Virus record (IMG/VR): IMGVR_UViG_3300023199_000021
Location: 62,001-126,000 of that record
Length of the DNA: 64,000 nucleotides
Source of the DNA: a virus
Reading direction: 5' to 3' (one strand)
Position 1 is the first letter of the stretch; every line of letters begins with the position of its first letter. The notes beneath the pieces are model-generated. The model was not told the origin of the DNA, searched no databases, and was given only the letters and a program-made list of their open reading frames with translations. Of the stretch, positions 4,363 through 64,000 are shown in pieces. The translations under genes and the position numbers were made by a program.

Positions 4363-5517
4363 ATGGCTAATAATAGAATTTACTACCCAATTCAGCAGGT
4401 AGCATTTCGTAAGCCGGGAACAACTGTATTCCGTGAAGCCCACGGTGTTCAGTCTATCTCCATTACGACTACCTTTAACTTAGAACAAGCATTCGAGTTG
4501 GGACAACTTGCTATATATGAAAACATCGAAGGTATTCCAGACATTGAAGTAACAATGAGTAAGATTTTGGATGGTTATCCACTTATATATACTCTAGCTT
4601 CTGCTTCTGATGCTGATGGTGGAACATTGGCAGGTCCAACTCTTGCTCAGCGTTCCTTGGCTGAAACAATCATGCAAATGGGTATTTGGTCCGAAACTGA
4701 TGAAGCCGTGAACGGCTCACCAATTACCTATGTGGAAATGTCAGGTCTGACAGTTTCTTCTGTAACTTACAACTTCCCATTGGAAGATAACTTTTCAGAA
4801 GATTTGACTCTGGCTGGTAACGTAAAGATTTGGGATACCTACAGCAATGGTACCTGTCCTGCTCCGTGGACACTAGCCGCAGCTACCGGTTCTCCGAACT
4901 TTGCATCCAACAACGATGCCCCGGTTGGTTCTGGTGGTGTTAACCGTCGTGAAAACATGATCTTCGCTACAACTAATGGTGAAGCAGGCGATGCTGACTA
5001 CACTCGTCTTCCCGGTGACATTTTTGGTGTTTCCGAAAGCGGTGTGAAGTCTAGTACCTGTCACGTAGCGTCTATCACTGTTTCTACTGACTTGGCTCGT
5101 GAAGACCTTTTCGAGCTAGGTGCTAAAAGTCCTTACGCTAAGACTGTTAACTTCCCTGTAGAAGTTACTTGCGATATTGAAGTAACCTCTATCTCAGGTG
5201 ATCAAGTTACAGCTATCGACGACTGTGGTGGTGCTGCCGCAGTATGTTCAACTGCTACCAACTTGAGCGACCGTATCATTCGTATCGCTACCTGTGAAGG
5301 AACTCGTATCTATCTTGGTGAGAAGAACAAGCTGGCCTCCGTATCTTACGGTGGTGGTGACGCTGGTGGTGGTAACGTAACAGTAACTTACTCTTACACA
5401 ACCTTCAACGACTTTACAGTTCTTCACTCAAATGACGATTTCAATGCAGATGGTCAAACTTGGTGGTCAACCCGTTCTGGATATTTAGGTCCAGCCGGTA
5501 CTACCCAAGATACCTAA
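4363..5517 (+). CDS. Major tail tube protein
   Basis: A 384-residue protein with the best ribosome site of the region (aggag at 4350-4354). Residues 1-90 hold the conserved tail-tube pattern: YPIQQVAF..PG......A.GVQS.......LEQ.FELGQLAIYENIEGIPD.EVT..K.LDG. This would be the subunit that polymerises into the inner tail tube around the tape measure. Residues 230-270 carry a second block, VSTDLAREDLFELGAKSPY followed by KTVNFPVEV, whose relative recurs on the other strand near 50.2 kb. The gene has its own upstream gap of 62 bases and a terminator-like hairpin behind it, consistent with high separate expression. No sheath gene lies next to it. Confidence 0.75.
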   Translation: MANNRIYYPIQQVAFRKPGTTVFREAHGVQSISITTTFNLEQAFELGQLAIYENIEGIPDIEVTMSKILDGYPLIYTLASASDADGGTLAGPTLAQRSLAETIMQMGIWSETDEAVNGSPITYVEMSGLTVSSVTYNFPLEDNFSEDLTLAGNVKIWDTYSNGTCPAPWTLAAATGSPNFASNNDAPVGSGGVNRRENMIFATTNGEAGDADYTRLPGDIFGVSESGVKSSTCHVASITVSTDLAREDLFELGAKSPYAKTVNFPVEVTCDIEVTSISGDQVTAIDDCGGAAAVCSTATNLSDRIIRIATCEGTRIYLGEKNKLASVSYGGGDAGGGNVTVTYSYTTFNDFTVLHSNDDFNADGQTWWSTRSGYLGPAGTTQDT

Positions 5518-45564: not shown

Positions 45565-46046
45565 TTCATCACCTTAGCCATTTGTAGATTCTTAAAGAGG
45601 TCACTCATATTCTTAACTGACGTAGCTAAGAATGTAAGACGGTCCACTCTTTGTTGTGCATATGATTTTAGTTTCAATAGACCTTTGGCAAAGTCATCAT
45701 CCTTGATAGCTTGGTGAAACTGGCTATCCCAAGACCCAACGTATTGTTGTTCCTTGCCAGAGATTAGTTTCTTCAAACGGTTTTCAGCCCATTTTACTCT
45801 GGCTGTTTCTCTATTCAAACATCGTTGTAAATGAAACGAGAATCCCCCTAGTGCCAACGCTATCTCGGCACACTGTTCGACACCTAGCTTCTCCATTTGC
45901 TCACGGCTCATAGAAAGATATTGCTTTACGTCATCGTCAACAACATCTTCAATGAATCCCGGCAAACCAATTTTCTTCTCGTATTCATCTAAAGCGGAAT
46001 CGAGAATCTGCATTTGCCCTAGCGGTGTTCTATCCTGTTCTTCCAT
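45561..46046 (-). CDS. Conserved phage protein of the recombination/replication unit
   Basis: A 161-residue all-helical protein. The block IALALGGFSFHLQRCLNRETARVKWAENRLKKLI (residues 64-98), preceded by LSMSREQMEKLGVEQ, is a pattern I have seen in conserved hypothetical proteins encoded next to phage recombinase and nuclease genes. The C-terminal helices (RVDRLTFLATSVKNMSDLFK) may form a coiled coil. It starts 28 bases inside the preceding nuclease gene. It may be a single-strand DNA or recombinase-loading accessory, inferred from neighbours only. Confidence 0.6.
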   Translation of the reverse strand: MEEQDRTPLGQMQILDSALDEYEKKIGLPGFIEDVVDDDVKQYLSMSREQMEKLGVEQCAEIALALGGFSFHLQRCLNRETARVKWAENRLKKLISGKEQQYVGSWDSQFHQAIKDDDFAKGLLKLKSYAQQRVDRLTFLATSVKNMSDLFKNLQMAKVMK

Positions 46047-46429
46047 TCTTCTTCCTTCTCATTATATGGCAATTCAATATAGGTAATGTTGTTGAGTTCA
46101 CACCAATCCTTCTTGTCAATGTCACGCTTCTTCTGTTCTAAAAAGTCGCGTGCTGAGGAATGGAACAGACTACTAAATTTATAGTGCTGCTCGCCGTGAA
46201 CTTCAACGCAAAGCTTGATCTGATTAATGTAGAAATCGAGATACTGAGTTCTTCCCGGCCTACAATTCACTGGAGCTTCTTCAAGGATTTGCATGGTAGG
46301 AAATAGCTCGTAAAGGATTCGTCTAGCTTGATTATGAAGCTTTGATCTAGACTTGGAATCGTTTCCCGTAACTATTTCCCCACGCAATTTCCATTTACCT
46401 ATGTTGCCAGCTAAGTCTCTTACTTTCAT
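46019..46429 (-). CDS. PD-(D/E)XK endonuclease-like protein
   Basis: A 136-residue protein. It starts at the ATG at 46429 (MKVRDLAGN), which overlaps the preceding stop (ATGA). Residues 28-50 (SKSRSKLHNQARRILYELF) are the lead helix. The core QYLDFYINQIKLCVEVHGEQHYKF gives the D...E-x-H-G-x-x-H signature of Vsr/DUF559-type nucleases, and FLEQKKRDIDKKDWCELNNITYIEL gives the K/R-rich helix and final strand. It is distant from the second such nuclease at 26854. Between a RecA-like protein and replication genes it could be a junction or nicking nuclease. Confidence 0.7.
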   Translation of the reverse strand: MKVRDLAGNIGKWKLRGEIVTGNDSKSRSKLHNQARRILYELFPTMQILEEAPVNCRPGRTQYLDFYINQIKLCVEVHGEQHYKFSSLFHSSARDFLEQKKRDIDKKDWCELNNITYIELPYNEKEEEWKNRIEHR

Positions 46430-47457
46430 GCTGCTAACATTACCTTGTTTGCATTCAATATTGCGAAGCCTTCGGTATTCCAAACCATACCTTGACCCTT
46501 GTAGGGCGTGATATTTCTATGAAACACGGTTGGGTCGGTGATTTCTGTGTTGATGAAAGAATCTCTCGTTCCCAAATCCAATACTACTCCGAAATCTTTC
46601 TCTGGCTCGTACCAAGACAGTTCGGGAGCGTGATTTACCTTGACTCCAAGCACACACATGGATTTGTCGCAGTTCAGAATGTCCTTTTCGATATGCACTT
46701 GCTCAAACATTTTGTAGTAGGTATGAGTAGGAACAAAGATATCGGTTGCTCTATTTCTGAATGGGCTAGAACTATCTCTACAGTCATTTCTTCGCATAGC
46801 AGTTTTACAAATACCGATTGTGCGTTGTACATCGGTAAAGTCTTCAATGGTAGGACCAGTGTTTTGCTTACTCGCTGCCATCAAAACATCCCATGCACCC
46901 TTTGCCATTTTCTTACGCATGGAATGGGCAATCTCTTGGACCCACATGCTTACCCTATCCCACTTGCCAATCATATTACTGAATTCAAAATTAATCCAGT
47001 CTCCTTCAAAGTCTGATTGTGGGACAAGAACATAGTCTACACTGTCATTGTCAATAACAACATTCTTGTTTTCATCAAGAAAAACAATGGGGTTGTTGAC
47101 GTTTAATGTAGTAAGACCGTTCTTCTCTCGATGGAACGCTAGAAGGTCAAGCGGAAACTTTGGGATTTCTCCCGGTTGAATCTTTACTTTCTCGTAAATT
47201 TTCTGATAAGAAAAACCAAATCTTTCGATATCGGTTTTCATTACCTTGTGAGCGGCCTGAATGATATCCTCAAACGAAGCTTGTTTGATAATGCTCTCTG
47301 CCTTTTCCCTAAGAACAGGTAGTTCTCTCAGGTGAGCATCAAAGCTATCGTTATCTACTTCACCTAGATGTTGTTTTACTAGATCAAGCGATGGAAGAAT
47401 AGGTGCTGCGGCAAATATCGCAGCTACGCTTTTTACAAAGTCACGCCTATCAAGCAT
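46426..47457 (-). CDS. HK97-capsid-like protein with Tat-type signal sequence
   Basis: A 343-residue protein. The first 25 residues are MLDRRDFVK followed by a hydrophobic Ala/Ile/Pro segment and PSL, the layout of a twin-arginine signal (RRDFVK, h-region, A-x-A-like end). The body looks like an HK97-fold capsid protein: N-terminal helix (ILREKAESIIKQA), IGKWDRVSMWVQEIAHSMRKKM spine-helix region, ATDIFVPTHTYYKMF, VLGVKVNHAPEL and a C-terminal GMVWNTEGFAILNANKVMLA strand-helix. It has a strong ribosome site (agga, 7-base spacing). It sits in the replication arm far from any capsid operon. It may be a paralogue with a new, perhaps exported, role. This is inference. Confidence 0.6.
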   Translation of the reverse strand: MLDRRDFVKSVAAIFAAAPILPSLDLVKQHLGEVDNDSFDAHLRELPVLREKAESIIKQASFEDIIQAAHKVMKTDIERFGFSYQKIYEKVKIQPGEIPKFPLDLLAFHREKNGLTTLNVNNPIVFLDENKNVVIDNDSVDYVLVPQSDFEGDWINFEFSNMIGKWDRVSMWVQEIAHSMRKKMAKGAWDVLMAASKQNTGPTIEDFTDVQRTIGICKTAMRRNDCRDSSSPFRNRATDIFVPTHTYYKMFEQVHIEKDILNCDKSMCVLGVKVNHAPELSWYEPEKDFGVVLDLGTRDSFINTEITDPTVFHRNITPYKGQGMVWNTEGFAILNANKVMLAA

Positions 47458-47542
47458 GATGAATTCCTAAGATAGTATGTTTGTTGTTTAGACAAGAGAC
47501 ACCGACAGCACCCAACACTTTAATAAAATCTCTACGCTGCAT
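47450..47542 (-). CDS. 30-residue Tat/lipobox-like leader peptide ORF
   Basis: An ATG inside the end of the RecA-like gene, with agga 7 bases upstream, opens a 30-residue frame: MQRRDFIKVLGAVGVSC, then LNNKHTILGIHHA. The first 17 residues match a twin-arginine lipoprotein leader (RRDFIK, a Gly/Ala/Val core, then a V-S-C lipobox-like end). The stop overlaps the start of the capsid-like gene, itself Tat-type. It could be a decayed signal-bearing gene or a tiny lipopeptide. It is short, so the evidence is the motif plus the ribosome site. Confidence 0.5.
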   Translation of the reverse strand: MQRRDFIKVLGAVGVSCLNNKHTILGIHHA

Positions 47543-48533
47543 GTTCCATTCCTATCATTTCGAATACTTGTTGTCTTAGTTCATTGTAGTATTCAGGATT
47601 TTCCTCTAGGTATGTAGCAAAGTTTGCCATACCCTGAACCTTCTCACCATTAGGCAAGGTCAACCAAGTTTTTCCTTCAACTACGCCAAAGTCCTTGGCT
47701 AGCTCTGCTAGCTCATACTCATTCCAAATACCTCGACCGTATTTGATAATGCTAGTCACTTTTTGACCGGGAGGCCCAATGGCTGAGTTTTCTACAATCC
47801 AGTGAACCTTCTGTCCAATTTGTGTTTCCCCCTGCTTCAACGCTTCCTTGTGCGTTGCCCACAACTTTACGTCCTGAGCATACTTCAAAGCGTTACCTGA
47901 TTTCTCAGTCTTACTTTTACCTGCTCCGAACTTCTGAATGTTAGCCATCAAGTGTGTAATACCTACGAGGGTTACACGGTTAATAGGTAGAACATTAGCG
48001 AATCGCCTAGTGAACTTAGCAAGATAGCGATTCATAGCGGCAACTTGAGTGTCGGTGATATCACCAACAAGTTCGTCTTCTGCTGCTAGTGCAGAGAAAG
48101 AGTCTATCACGCATACAGCGTGTGGTTCATTATGAATGATATTGTCAAAGATGGCAAGGTATTTTTCACCCGAAAGAATGTTGCCTTTCGTGGAACCAAC
48201 AACTTTTAATCCTTCGGGTGAATAGTCCAATCCATGAATACCTTCGAGGTCACGCTTTTTCAATCGTCCTTCGATATTGCCATAATAGATTTTGCGTTTT
48301 GCTTCTGATTCGGTCGCCACCTTTTGTGCATTTTTACAAAATTGCAAAGCTTGTACAGTCTTACCCACTTTTTCTGGTCCTGTCATGATAAACAGACAGC
48401 CTTCGGGGACACCGCCCCCCAAGGCTATATCTATTTTAGGGCTCACCGAAATTAACGGAGGCGGATTATCGACGATGTAAGACGCTTCAAGTAGCACGTC
48501 ACCATACTCTTTAATAATGTCTTTTTCTGTCAT
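47532..48533 (-). CDS. RecA/UvsX-like recombinase
   Basis: A 333-residue ATPase. PPPLISVSPKIDIALGGGVPEG leads to Walker A TGPEKVGKTV (residues 51-60). Then a central region YYGNIEGRLKKRDLEG, the Walker B strand AVCVIDSFSAL, and a loop MNRYLAKFTRRF. RVTLVGITHL corresponds to the strand followed by the DNA-binding loop in RecA-type ATPases, and GNALKYAQDVKLW fits the segment after L2. It would form filaments on single-stranded DNA and pair strands in phage recombination. Its end carries the leader ORF start. Confidence 0.85.
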   Translation of the reverse strand: MTEKDIIKEYGDVLLEASYIVDNPPPLISVSPKIDIALGGGVPEGCLFIMTGPEKVGKTVQALQFCKNAQKVATESEAKRKIYYGNIEGRLKKRDLEGIHGLDYSPEGLKVVGSTKGNILSGEKYLAIFDNIIHNEPHAVCVIDSFSALAAEDELVGDITDTQVAAMNRYLAKFTRRFANVLPINRVTLVGITHLMANIQKFGAGKSKTEKSGNALKYAQDVKLWATHKEALKQGETQIGQKVHWIVENSAIGPPGQKVTSIIKYGRGIWNEYELAELAKDFGVVEGKTWLTLPNGEKVQGMANFATYLEENPEYYNELRQQVFEMIGMEHAA

Positions 48534-48964
48534 TCCAAATCCTTGAGTTTTGATATAACTGACTTCTTGTTATTGTTAGTGTCAAAGGTTTTCTTTTCCG
48601 AGAAGTCATACTCAACCTTTTGGGCAATCTTACGTGCGATTTCTGCTTTGTCTTTGTATTCTTTGACAACCTTTTCAAGCCAAGGACTACGTAAGGAATA
48701 CGTCTTCCATGTACGGTTGTCTTGCAGAGCAGAGATTACAGCGTGTTCCCCATATTCTTTGATAAGCTTATTGGCAAGAGTAATTTGGTATCTGTAGAAC
48801 TTAAGCCATTCTTTTAATTCCCAGAACTTTAGAGGAAGTTCCTTGTTTTCTGTTTTTGCTTTTTTCTCACAGATTAGCTCAGTGATATACTGTGCCGCAT
48901 GTACCCACTCTCGCGGTGAATAGCGGGATGGGTACTTACTTTTTTCAGTTCTTTGTTTGGCCAT
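48530..48964 (-). CDS. Conserved phage helical protein beside recombinase
   Basis: A 144-residue protein. Blocks SPREWVHAAQYITELICEKKA, LPLKFWELKEWLKFYRYQITLANKLIKEYG and TYSLRSPWLEKVVKEY form a pattern I recognise as a conserved hypothetical in phages with a RecA-like recombinase. All-helical, with a charged C-terminus. It is coupled to the recombinase by ATG overlap at 48530. A mediator or helicase-loader-like role is possible, based on neighbours only. Confidence 0.6.
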   Translation of the reverse strand: MAKQRTEKSKYPSRYSPREWVHAAQYITELICEKKAKTENKELPLKFWELKEWLKFYRYQITLANKLIKEYGEHAVISALQDNRTWKTYSLRSPWLEKVVKEYKDKAEIARKIAQKVEYDFSEKKTFDTNNNKKSVISKLKDLE

Positions 48965-49301
48965 CGTCTTTGGAGATAATATGAGTAGTCGGTTTGAACC
49001 TTTTTACAATTTTACTCTGCTTTTTACCTCTCGTTAGCTCTGATCTGGAAGATTCTGCCTCGGTCATAATGCTGACGCCCCTGTTGTTTTGGGCAGCGGT
49101 ACGACGAACAAACTGGGTAGGATTCTTTTTGCCAGATTCCTCTTGAACTTCTTCTTCCGGTTCAAATACTGAATCCACATGCTTTTGTACAGCCTGTGAG
49201 CTACGCCCCAAGAAGTCTGCGATTTCATCAATCTCATTATCTTGTTCGTACATGGTTTCAATAGTGAACTTTTCTGCTTTACTTAATCTACCTTTAGCCA
49301 T
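48945..49301 (-). CDS. Helix-turn-helix DNA-binding protein
   Basis: A 118-residue protein with an N-terminal HTH: LSKAEKFTIETMYEQDNEIDEIADFLGRSSQAVQKHVDSV (residues 6-45) resembles the resolvase/sigma-4 type. A charged linker and a second conserved patch (GVSIMTEAESSRSEL) follow. In related phages such proteins accompany recombinase genes and may control transcription or bind polymerase. It overlaps the next gene by 20 bases, suggesting coupled translation. Confidence 0.6.
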   Translation of the reverse strand: MAKGRLSKAEKFTIETMYEQDNEIDEIADFLGRSSQAVQKHVDSVFEPEEEVQEESGKKNPTQFVRRTAAQNNRGVSIMTEAESSRSELTRGKKQSKIVKRFKPTTHIISKDDGQTKN

Positions 49302-49702
49302 TACACTTCCCTTTCTGCGTTACGAAGCCACGCCGAATTTTTTGTTTGAAGAAATTTGATATAGTAATTGAAGACCTTACTACTGGTCGCCTCGAATCTC
49401 CATTCTGGCCTGCCAGCGTGTCGCATCTGCTTGTTTTTAGTTCCCTCTGTGTACATGCCAATCGGATTATAAAGATGGCCGTGACGCCCACGCTTTACGT
49501 AATACGTGGTAAGTCTGCCCTTTGTAATCTTTAAGGCATACGCATCTGGTGAGGAAAATAAATCTTCTAAGTCTTCCTCGCCAATCTCTATCATTGGATA
49601 GCCCTGATCATCCATAAAGTCATGCTCACCTTTGAAAGTGTAAGCTGAGATTAGAATGTCAGACGGGTCTTCTTTGTCTCTGTCGATTTTAAAAGTGGTC
49701 AT
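49301..49702 (-). CDS. Conserved hypothetical protein
   Basis: A 133-residue protein without a recognised domain. It has an acidic N-terminal half (ILISAYTFKGEHDFMDDQGYPMIEIGEEDLEDLF) followed by a basic region with KITKGRLTTYYVKRGRHGHLYNP and a C-terminal helix (VFNYYIKFLQTKNSAWLRNAEREV). It is coupled by ATGA-type overlaps to the FmdB-like gene upstream and the HTH gene downstream. It may take part in the same regulatory or recombination unit. Confidence 0.5.
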   Translation of the reverse strand: MTTFKIDRDKEDPSDILISAYTFKGEHDFMDDQGYPMIEIGEEDLEDLFSSPDAYALKITKGRLTTYYVKRGRHGHLYNPIGMYTEGTKNKQMRHAGRPEWRFEATSSKVFNYYIKFLQTKNSAWLRNAEREV

Positions 49703-50085
49703 TTACCCTTCCTTTTCTTTTTAGCGTCTTGTTTTGAAATACGAGGCATATCGCTATTTGTTTTAGCTCGACTCATACCGGATGGTAGTTCTTTTATTCC
49801 AGTGTTAGGGTTCTTCTTTGTCTTATAGCTACGTAGCTTTGCATCACGTTCGTCACGACTTAGTTTGGCAGTTTGTTTGTCTGCATATTCACCCAGAGTC
49901 GTTGCTTCGTGAAGGCCCTTGACATAGTTTGGAACAATACGGTCTGCACCGTAGTCCCTCAATACCCTCTTACTTTTGCATTCGGGGCATTTTACCTTTT
50001 TGATTTTTTCGTCGTATTCTGCTATTGAGAATACTGAGGTAAAAGCTACCTCACACTTTTCACATTCAAAACTATATTCCGGCAT
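49699..50085 (-). CDS. FmdB-family zinc-ribbon protein
   Basis: A 128-residue protein. The N-terminal zinc ribbon PEYSFECEKCEVAFTSVF and VKCPECKSKRVLRDYG (residues 2-50) carries two C-x2-C pairs in the FmdB spacing. The C-terminal 70 residues are basic (RDERDAKLRSYKTKK, KKKRKGK). FmdB-like zinc ribbons are thought to be transcriptional regulators, though direct evidence is thin. It starts inside the end of the Tat-leader/tube-like gene. Confidence 0.75.
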   Translation of the reverse strand: MPEYSFECEKCEVAFTSVFSIAEYDEKIKKVKCPECKSKRVLRDYGADRIVPNYVKGLHEATTLGEYADKQTAKLSRDERDAKLRSYKTKKNPNTGIKELPSGMSRAKTNSDMPRISKQDAKKKRKGK

Positions 50086-50469
50086 TACGAATTGTCCCCC
50101 ATGCGTCGTCGTCCATTTTCTTTTTGAATCCTTCTTCTATAATTTTCATGGCACGTCCTACAACGTCCCAGCTTCCGATTTCAGATTCAGTTTTAACAGG
50201 GAAATTCACATACTTATGATAAGATGTTTTGCGACCCAATTCGCAAATTTCTTCCCTGTCTAGGTTACAAGATACACCAATGTTTTGAAAGTGGGGTGAA
50301 TTATTTCCCAAACCACCATGCATTTCTATCTGCTTTTCAGGATAGAAGATACGTGGGTCACGCTCCTTTTTTTAGGAACGTCTGTAATTGTTTTTTTTGC
50401 ACAAGAAAAAGGCAACGCCCTCGCAAGTGGGAGTGCTGCCAATAGTTTGTTGGAATCTCTACGTTTCAT
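50072..50469 (-). CDS. Tat-leader plus tail-tube/capsid-like fragment, joined by a -1 shift at A7
   Basis: The ATG at 50469, with gagga 5 bases upstream, opens MKRRDSNK, then LLAALPLARALPFSC, a Tat-lipobox-like leader, and runs to TAG at 50326 (47 residues). At an A7 run (T7 at 50367-50373 on the + strand) a -1 shift leads into another frame that continues ERDPRIFYPEKQIEMHGG and stops at 50072. The joined tail contains CNLDREEICELGRKTSYHKY and VNFPV, similar to the tail tube C-region, and then EIGSWDVVGRAM and EEGFKKKMDDDAW, similar to the capsid-like protein at 46426. An 83-codon frame from an internal ATG (50323) is the alternative. It may be a decayed or programmed fusion. Confidence 0.5.
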
Positions 50470-50686
50470 TTTCATCCTCTAAGAAGTGCCCTTGAACGTC
50501 CAAACACTTTTTACAGTAAACCTTCGCTGCTCGAATTTCTACCGCATCTGGAGAAAGTTTCAGGCCGTACCCTAAATAGTCTTTGCGGTATCGACCTGCC
50601 ACTTCCACGTCAGGTATTATTACTGTTACTTTATCTCCATGTTCGAGCATACGATGGCAATTGTCGCACCGTTTAAGCTCGTACAT
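50459..50686 (-). CDS. Small zinc-binding protein (75 aa)
   Basis: A 75-residue protein with two C-x2-C pairs far apart: RCDNCHRMLEHGDKVTVIIPDV near the start and YCKKCLDVQGHF near the end, enclosing a beta hairpin with GDKV-type turn (as in LIM/treble-clef small domains). It could bind nucleic acid or protein. It follows the HNH gene and its end carries the start of the Tat-leader ORF. No specific family known. Confidence 0.65.
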   Translation of the reverse strand: MYELKRCDNCHRMLEHGDKVTVIIPDVEVAGRYRKDYLGYGLKLSPDAVEIRAAKVYCKKCLDVQGHFLEDENET

Positions 50687-63580: not shown

Positions 63581-63769
63581 TTATATATTGATTGAAACTT
63601 GGGCAAATCCATCGCTATCCTTTGAACTTAGAAAAGTGCCGATACGATTGCCTTGATAGTTGTTGACTACTCCATTGTGGGAATAGGCTGTTTCACCAGC
63701 TTTAGCTTCTCCATCAACAGTAATGGTTACGATTCCATTTCTTAGAACCTGAACCTTGCCTCCTTGCAT
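63581..63769 (-). CDS. Small virion-like beta protein (62 aa)
   Basis: A 62-residue, fully beta-type protein: VQVLRNGIVTITVDGEAKAGETAY, NYQGNRIGTFLSSKD, ending DGFAQVSINI. The pattern V-x-V-x-x-G-x-A-x-x-G, then GT.LS....DGFAQV, is like small capsid decoration proteins. It sits just behind a partial gene at the window edge. It may be virion associated, inferred from fold type. Confidence 0.5.
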   Translation of the reverse strand: MQGGKVQVLRNGIVTITVDGEAKAGETAYSHNGVVNNYQGNRIGTFLSSKDSDGFAQVSINI

Positions 63770-63801
63770 AACCTGATCGCTGCAACTGATATGCTGTTTT
63801 G

Positions 63802-64000
63802 TTAAGTCGATATTACATGCTCAAAGTCTAGGTCAGGCACCCATACAATCTCAAGTGCCCCACCATCGCCCTGACTATTCAATATATCCGCTAGGCTTCC
63901 ACTTGTGTTACTAGGAAGCATACCGGTAACTGGAGAAGTTAATAGTTGTAACTTAGACGGAGGATCAACAGGTTGATCTAAGTCAATAAACTGGCTCGAC
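63802..64000 (-). CDS. Partial hypothetical protein, C-terminal 65 residues
   Basis: An open frame runs off the right window edge and ends at TAA 63802-63804 on the - strand. It reads FIDLDQPVDPPSKLQLLTSP, TGMLPSNTSGSLADIL and ALEIVWVPDLDFEHVI. No family can be assigned from the fragment. It probably belongs to the operon continuing beyond 64 kb. Confidence 0.55.
   Translation of the reverse strand, partial: SSQFIDLDQPVDPPSKLQLLTSPVTGMLPSNTSGSLADILNSQGDGGALEIVWVPDLDFEHVIST

Follow-up and report, generated by a model that had tools for sequence, protein, structure and literature searches.

The DNA analysed here carries, and a group of related phages shares, genes in which a leader of the twin-arginine (Tat) type precedes pieces of five late genes: those for the major capsid protein (MCP), the portal, the N-terminal part of the terminase, the cement protein and a protein that we call p384. 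The open reading frames hold these pieces in frame and often in permuted order; a piece is about 15-80 aa long, and is sometimes a near-complete MCP. We hold this anatomy with high confidence. The window, by which we mean the whole stretch of 64,000 nucleotides that was analysed, comprises bases 62001-126000 of G000, an IMG/VR virus record of 130,845 bases, and represents the replication side of the phage, with a uvsX-like recombinase, a DnaB-like helicase and an HNH gene.

The phage's own MCP gene lies outside the window (G000:60272-61270), beside the gene for the cement protein (PF22758). It is an HK97-fold MCP of the Bacillus phage G kind (phrog_2522, PDB 6wkk): with its family profile, the Bacillus phage G MCP (PDB 6wkk) is matched at E 1.2e-6, and that phage is the sole one in INPHARED for which an MCP relative was found. 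Family matches within G000 itself identify the MCP and the terminase; the portal takes its name from the match of a homologue. For p384 we found no PHROG or PDB match, and no family was assigned. MCP relatives occur in metagenome-assembled genomes of Flavobacteriales, Chitinophagia, Alphaproteobacteria and SAR202, possibly as binning noise. AlphaFold models were poor (pLDDT 53 for the MCP and 40 for the 343-aa protein described below), so that the pieces could not be mapped onto the fold; a Foldseek search with the MCP model gave no match at E < 0.001, the top ranks nonetheless being HK97-fold capsids. The relevant features of the window are as follows.

4363..5514, plus strand: p384 gene in the late block, a virion-type gene and the source of the piece at 50171-50305 (HMM match)
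46019..46429, minus strand: DUF559-like gene, downstream anchor of slot B (weak match, E 0.067; synteny)
46426..47457, minus strand: intact 343-aa gene in slot B, after uvsX; Tat-type leader of ~26 aa, MLDRRDFVKSVAAIFAAAPILPSLDL, and full-length MCP paralogue
47450..47542, minus strand: 30-aa ORF MQRRDFIKVLGAVGVSCLNNKHTILGIHHA, a lone Tat-type leader overlapping the 3' end of uvsX
47532..48533, minus strand: uvsX-like recombinase, upstream anchor of slot B (phrog_97, E 2.4e-37)
49699..50085, minus strand: FmdB-like gene, downstream anchor of slot A (phrog_1076, E 2.8e-5)
50075..50176, minus strand: MCP piece, residues 122-155 (HMM E 6.1e-11; 56% over 32 aa to the phage's own MCP)
50171..50305, minus strand: p384-derived piece (HMM E 3.3e-14, profile 214-258)
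50326..50469, minus strand: leader ORF MKRRDSNKLLAALPLARALPFSC... in slot A, directly downstream of the Zn-ribbon gene; degenerate Tat-type leader
50367..50373, minus strand: run of seven A (T on the plus strand), at which leader and body frames are joinable by a -1 shift
50459..50686, minus strand: CxxC (Zn-ribbon-like) gene, upstream anchor of slot A (synteny)
63584..63814, minus strand: cement-protein piece, C-terminal half, in a frame other than that of the fourth leader ORF
63802..64000, minus strand: 3' part of the fourth leader ORF, MTKIERRGFLKMLGFGAAAAATVP..., whose start is at G000:126110, 110 bases past the window end
63823-63909, minus strand: portal piece inside the fourth leader ORF (portal HMM E 9.7e-6)

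The original prediction was of three unrelated genes with Tat-type leaders. The three ATG-initiated ORFs, opening MLDRRDFVK (47457), MQRRDFIK (47542) and MKRRDSNK (50469), are indeed present on the minus strand, each with a hydrophobic stretch and a ribosome site with a 4-nt Shine-Dalgarno match. Only the first opens an intact gene; the other two open ORFs of 30 and 47 aa. Nor are they unrelated: the leaders at 47542 and 50469 are 74% identical over 35 nt of DNA, and the bodies downstream of 47457 and 50469 are both capsid-related.

We judged the leaders with profile HMMs and by inspection. The RR motif is seen in all of them, and most score under the curated Tat cut-offs. The leader at 47542 reaches 18.8 bits (E 0.0016; cut-off 22.7) against Pfam TAT_signal PF10518 and, at 16.0 bits, falls just under the 16.7-bit cut-off of NCBIfam TIGR01409. 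The leader at 47457 is below every library cut-off; that at 50469 is degenerate (RRDSN, lacking the F) and matches no Tat model, and neither of these two matches TIGR01409. That cut-off is passed by two leaders, the fourth of G000 (start at 64110 in window numbering; 21.1 bits) and that of L226. PF10518 stays below its own cut-off for all leaders and yet ranks in many. This ranking, and a scan for RR leaders in the loci collected by then, in which hits with both an ATG and a ribosome site comprised these families and a few short, apparently spurious ORFs, rule out chance leaders. Tat routing of the leader genes is predicted as rather probable. We note that the fourth leader, which is better than the first three, begins just beyond the window end and had been overlooked. 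The lipobox-like cysteines that had been proposed did not hold up: GVSC (47542) and PFSC (50469) have G or P at -3 and misfit the lipobox [LVI][ASTVI][GAS]C, as on inspection do ARKC (G017) and QSEC (L226), and a Tat lipoprotein reading is ruled out.

Each of the four cases in G000 has its own anatomy. The 343-aa protein aligns with the phage's own MCP over 338 aa at 23% identity (E 3e-15; HMM E 9.6e-15), its leader standing where the MCP has its N-arm. Its homology is of MCP length, but the gene lies outside the head gene block, between uvsX and the DUF559-like gene. The 30-aa ORF at 47542 is likely a remnant leader. The leader at 50469 and the ORF at 50072-50371 look like one frame-broken chimera made of a leader, a p384 piece and MCP residues 122-155; the zero frame reads CCT AAA AAA AGG, so that the run of seven A permits slippage, in a register other than the canonical A AAA AAG. 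The fourth case (63584-64110) consists of a leader, a portal piece and a cement piece (40% over 84 aa, E 1.7e-12; HMM E 2.1e-21), and is frame-broken as well. Two of the four cases are therefore frame-broken and one is a bare leader, and the suggestion that these might be captured or decayed leaders is borne out in part, as to decay.

A search for relatives of the 343-aa gene by single protein, INPHARED included, found none, and the loci of related phages were reached by synteny around uvsX. About eight related phages have mostly intact versions of these genes, at three sites. Slot A is the position between the Zn-ribbon and FmdB-like genes, slot B that between the uvsX and DUF559-like genes; the third, slot C, is described below. 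The contents of slots A and B were these.

L108/L109: four Tat-leader genes in slot A, one in slot B
L137: two Tat-leader genes in slot A, one in slot B
L136: at least two Tat-leader genes in slot A
L107: one Tat-leader gene per slot; the contig ends within slot A
L134: one Tat-leader gene in slot A; a leaderless MCP paralogue in slot B
L118/L120: a leader remnant in slot A

A leader with a capsid-like body is thus retained at the same site in related phages, and the homologues carry RR leaders, both in favour of the original prediction. RR-leader homologues of the 343-aa gene occupy slot B in L107, L108/L109 and L137, and the slot A leader of L118 shares 62% identity over 21 aa with the leader at 50469. 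In close relatives (uvsX 84-90%, both anchors present) slot A is empty in nearly all, with 5-9 bp (76 bp in L090/L092), and slot B measures 3 bp. Because both slots are empty in many close relatives (3-9 bp), the genes are dispensable. A longer gap B in L106 results from a partial match at a contig end. Slot B in relatives also hosts other accessory genes, namely a protease and TnpB. In a phylogenetic tree the slot B gene of L107 falls inside the MCPs (80/97), whereas those of the window, L108 and L137 form a separate clade (99/98), with long branches, and share the motifs PTHTY and HAPELSW, which are absent from MCPs. By this topology, at least two separate recruitments probably brought a near-complete MCP to slot B behind a Tat leader.

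Most of the genes, however, are not the export versions of folded structural proteins that had been envisaged, being patchworks of short, order-permuted pieces. Mapping with profile HMMs of the five late genes gave the following arrangements.

L136b, one ORF: MCP 164-187, then 89-121, then 30-72, then p384 130-159
L108b: MCP 309-323 (weak, E 0.019), then 29-72
L108c: MCP 109-142, then 76-100
L108d, L107a, L134b, L136c and L226: MCP around 200-230
L136c: additionally terminase 168-215, a segment that L107z has as well
L138a, lacking a leader: portal 352-375, then 313-331

Outside G000 the pieces follow the leader in the sense orientation and in its frame. Similar leaders across phages (MNINRRKFFRVAAVGVAAASLP...) precede different MCP pieces, and the architecture of L108a and L137a is the same at 41% identity. 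Leaderless chimeras also exist (L134c, L138/L140). About 37 late-gene matches were seen, as against fewer than 0.3 expected from shuffled proteins (E<0.05). When the bodies were compared by BLAST with 845 G000 ORFs (>=50 aa), the matches were only to the five late genes, which make up 4.5% of G000 bases, and to one 66-aa ORF (48215) that itself resembles an MCP fragment. A six-frame scan of all loci found partial late-gene matches essentially confined to these genes, the exceptions being gene ends cut by locus borders, the tandem p384 paralogues of L067/L068/L070 and one partial terminase. Simple decayed MCP duplicates are ruled out for most members because an intact ORF has its MCP blocks reversed (L136) or holds pieces of several genes.

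The third site gives a view of the process at short range. The slot C gene sits upstream of a gene for a ~410-aa Tat-leader DUF1501 protein (PF07394), a family present in 16 of 45 records and absent from G000; from DUF1501 our guess is that the host is a member of the Planctomycetota. The leader and the C-terminus (NENRYYDPKWNVNGSWNKAQSR..LQKLHDDDH) of the slot C gene are constant, and the part between them varies; in L226 that part corresponds to MCP 200-232. In G022 the leader and the C-terminal end enclose 89 bp that share 95.5% DNA identity with the MCP of G021, a record of the same species (99.9% over 21 kb), which shows that MCP sequence was captured recently; three of the four substitutions alter amino acids, for 3 changes in 29 residues (RHVEGDY to RYIKGDY).

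Near-identical records show fast, in-frame rearrangement within the chimeras. Between L108 and L109 there are 8 SNPs in 13.6 kb and a single indel, of 24 bp, which falls inside the Tat-MCP gene; the 9.1 kb compared between L138 and L140 contain 2 SNPs and two indels of 18 bp, which are located within the chimeric gene. Each of the three indels has a length divisible by 3; direct repeats of 2-3 bp border the two deletions, and the inserted sequence is a tandem copy. L134 and L135 differ by one 3-bp indel, outside the chimeras, and L118 and L120 by none.

We propose that late-gene pieces reach the leader genes by illegitimate recombination, through 2-3 bp direct repeats or tandem duplication as at these small rearrangements, and that pieces which stay in frame would be retained. 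Since slots A and B lie in the replication region, their products should be made before the virion proteins that they mimic; a promoter scan gave a number of sites not above that in shuffled sequence. The chimeras might then be baits that bind a cytoplasmic partner of the virion proteins, the most probable partners being host sensors of capsid, portal or terminase. The Tat leader would park the complex at the inner membrane or carry it through, in the manner of Tat 'hitchhiker' export, so that the bait would spare later head assembly and leave no active sensor behind. Three published observations bear on this idea: the MCP directly triggers CapRel, and terminase and portal trigger Avs (PMC9712102); a short MCP peptide of T4 gp23 (Gol) can activate Lit (PMC9712102); and a tagged protein takes its bound partners along in Tat export (PMC4273604). 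Because the set of source proteins overlaps known immunity triggers, and because Tat carries bound partners, the explanation that we prefer overall, though tentatively, is that these are early-made, membrane-targeted virion mimics of shuffled origin that serve as baits. Bait function as such we regard as possible but less likely than not. Against it, known sensors may need folded surfaces and many pieces are short; G000 has its two frame-broken cases and its bare leader; leaderless chimeras exist; the genes are dispensable; and most leaders score under curated Tat cut-offs.

A broader formulation, in which renewable, reshuffled, early Tat-tagged chimeras move either sensors or rival proteins to the membrane, in counter-defence or interference, is likewise no better than possible. 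Interference proper, which we consider rather unlikely, would have dominant-negative pieces act against related phages or satellites in the same cell by poisoning their head assembly or packaging, while the leader holds the pieces at the membrane, apart from the phage's own late assembly. Every named source is an assembly or packaging protein, occurrence is patchy among close relatives, and 3 of the 29 residues in the G022 piece are not those of its own species' MCP, as would be expected if self-poisoning had to be avoided; yet the phage's own virion proteins would be the nearest targets, and membrane or export routing is odd for an assembly poison. Recombination debris, also unlikely and placed third, would mean that leader genes at hot spots gather late-gene fragments and decay functionless, the frame persisting for no other reason than that broken products are lost or do harm. 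The frequent rearrangements, the other accessory genes in slot B (protease, TnpB) and the frame-broken and stub cases of G000 agree with this, but it does not sit well with pieces that outside G000 are in frame and in sense behind the leader, with sources restricted to late genes, with conserved leaders and slots, with the architecture shared by L108a and L137a at 41% identity, or with three long indels that are all multiples of 3.

The envelope role of the original prediction, with capsid-like proteins exported to the periplasm or surface, for example in superinfection block or receptor occupation, now seems quite improbable on the sequence evidence. Tat-type leaders are present, and related phages encode the Tat-leader DUF1501 protein, so the Tat route is probably used by this phage group; however, pieces of capsid, portal, terminase and cement protein are not receptor-binding parts, the cysteines misfit the lipobox, and no tail-fibre pieces were found. 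That metagenome assembly fused unrelated sequences is very improbable. All records are metagenome assemblies, and the two 18-bp indels between L138 and L140 (one a loss, one a tandem copy) could reflect a local slip in assembly, but the same kind of architecture recurs in about eight phages from different samples with frames intact, amino-acid identity to MCPs is only 40-70% for most pieces, and the G022 piece departs by 4.5% in DNA from the MCP of its species, which speaks against a simple joint made in assembly. Our order of preference is baits, with interference close behind and debris third, and the data do not decide among these.

If the preferred reading is true, viruses have a route from fragments of their structural genes to separate proteins that evolve fast and are directed to the membrane, and, because MCP, portal and terminase are sensed by known bacterial sensors, the sequences are ready candidate baits. 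Even if they have no function, a recurrent, source-specific gene shuffling in phages calls for explanation. We found no report of such a gene family in the open-access literature. Like Tat substrates (PF10518, TIGR01409), the proteins have RRx(F/L) near the N-terminus, a hydrophobic stretch and small residues at its end; unlike them, their bodies are pieces of phage virion proteins and not folded redox enzymes or hydrolases, and many leaders are below cut-off. The HK97-fold MCP (phrog_2522, 6wkk) aligns over most of its length with the 343-aa gene and with the homologues in slot B, but in these the N-arm is swapped for a leader and the location is the replication region. Ty1 p22, Fv1, enJSRV Gag and the capsid-redirecting proteins of PICIs illustrate that derivatives of capsid genes can block or redirect assembly; these are single domesticated or truncated capsid genes and not permuted patchworks with Tat leaders. 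As in diversity-generating retroelements, a constant frame surrounds a fast-changing part, but here the variation consists of segment swapping and in-frame indels, and such elements are ruled out, no RVT_1 reverse transcriptase being present in 14 records including G000 (several of them fragments). The Gol peptide of T4 gp23 and the triggers of CapRel and Avs (PMC9712102) belong to the same protein classes, and there too a short capsid segment can carry the signal; those triggers are parts of normal virion proteins, whereas here detached pieces are encoded in separate, leader-bearing genes. A Tat leader joined to permuted pieces of several of a phage's own virion genes is thus a new construction that fits no tested family, assembled from parts of known kinds.

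G000, the record that contains the window, carries a small ORF that looks like a piece of the major capsid protein (MCP) gene and a terminase gene with an intein-like insertion, and related phages encode Tat-leader proteins (G, records; L, loci cut from records).

G000:48218-48412 (L006:8218-8412), plus strand: small ORF resembling an MCP fragment, QNIMVFDYGPTKKLLYLML...
G000:52096-55398 (L006:12096-15398): terminase large subunit gene with intein-like insertion
L196:934-1560 (G012), minus strand: phage-encoded Tat-leader protein with matrixin-like HExxHxxGxxH motif, AAHEIGHLLGLYH
L008:19199-19744, minus strand: phage-encoded, lipoprotein-like thioredoxin-domain protein, assigned by eye, close to the record end

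Homologues of the small ORF are the leaderless 122-aa ORFs in slot A (between the Zn-ribbon and FmdB-like genes) of L132 and L133. The terminase insertion matches LAGLIDADG_3 (E 4.8e-7) and, weakly, Hint_2.

Slot B, between uvsX and the DUF559-like gene, has different occupants in other relatives, named by eye: HtrA/trypsin-like protease genes, whose products have hydrophobic N-termini (L145, L147, L161, L172), and TnpB-like genes (L141, L154, L164, L165, L168).

Of 45 records from related phages, 16 (G008, G009, G012, G014, G015, G017-G019, G022-G024, G026-G028, G036 and G037) encode between one and four DUF1501 proteins each, and the proteins inspected carry Tat leaders. The family occurs in Planctomycetota and other environmental bacteria; the phage genes are possibly host-derived auxiliary genes.
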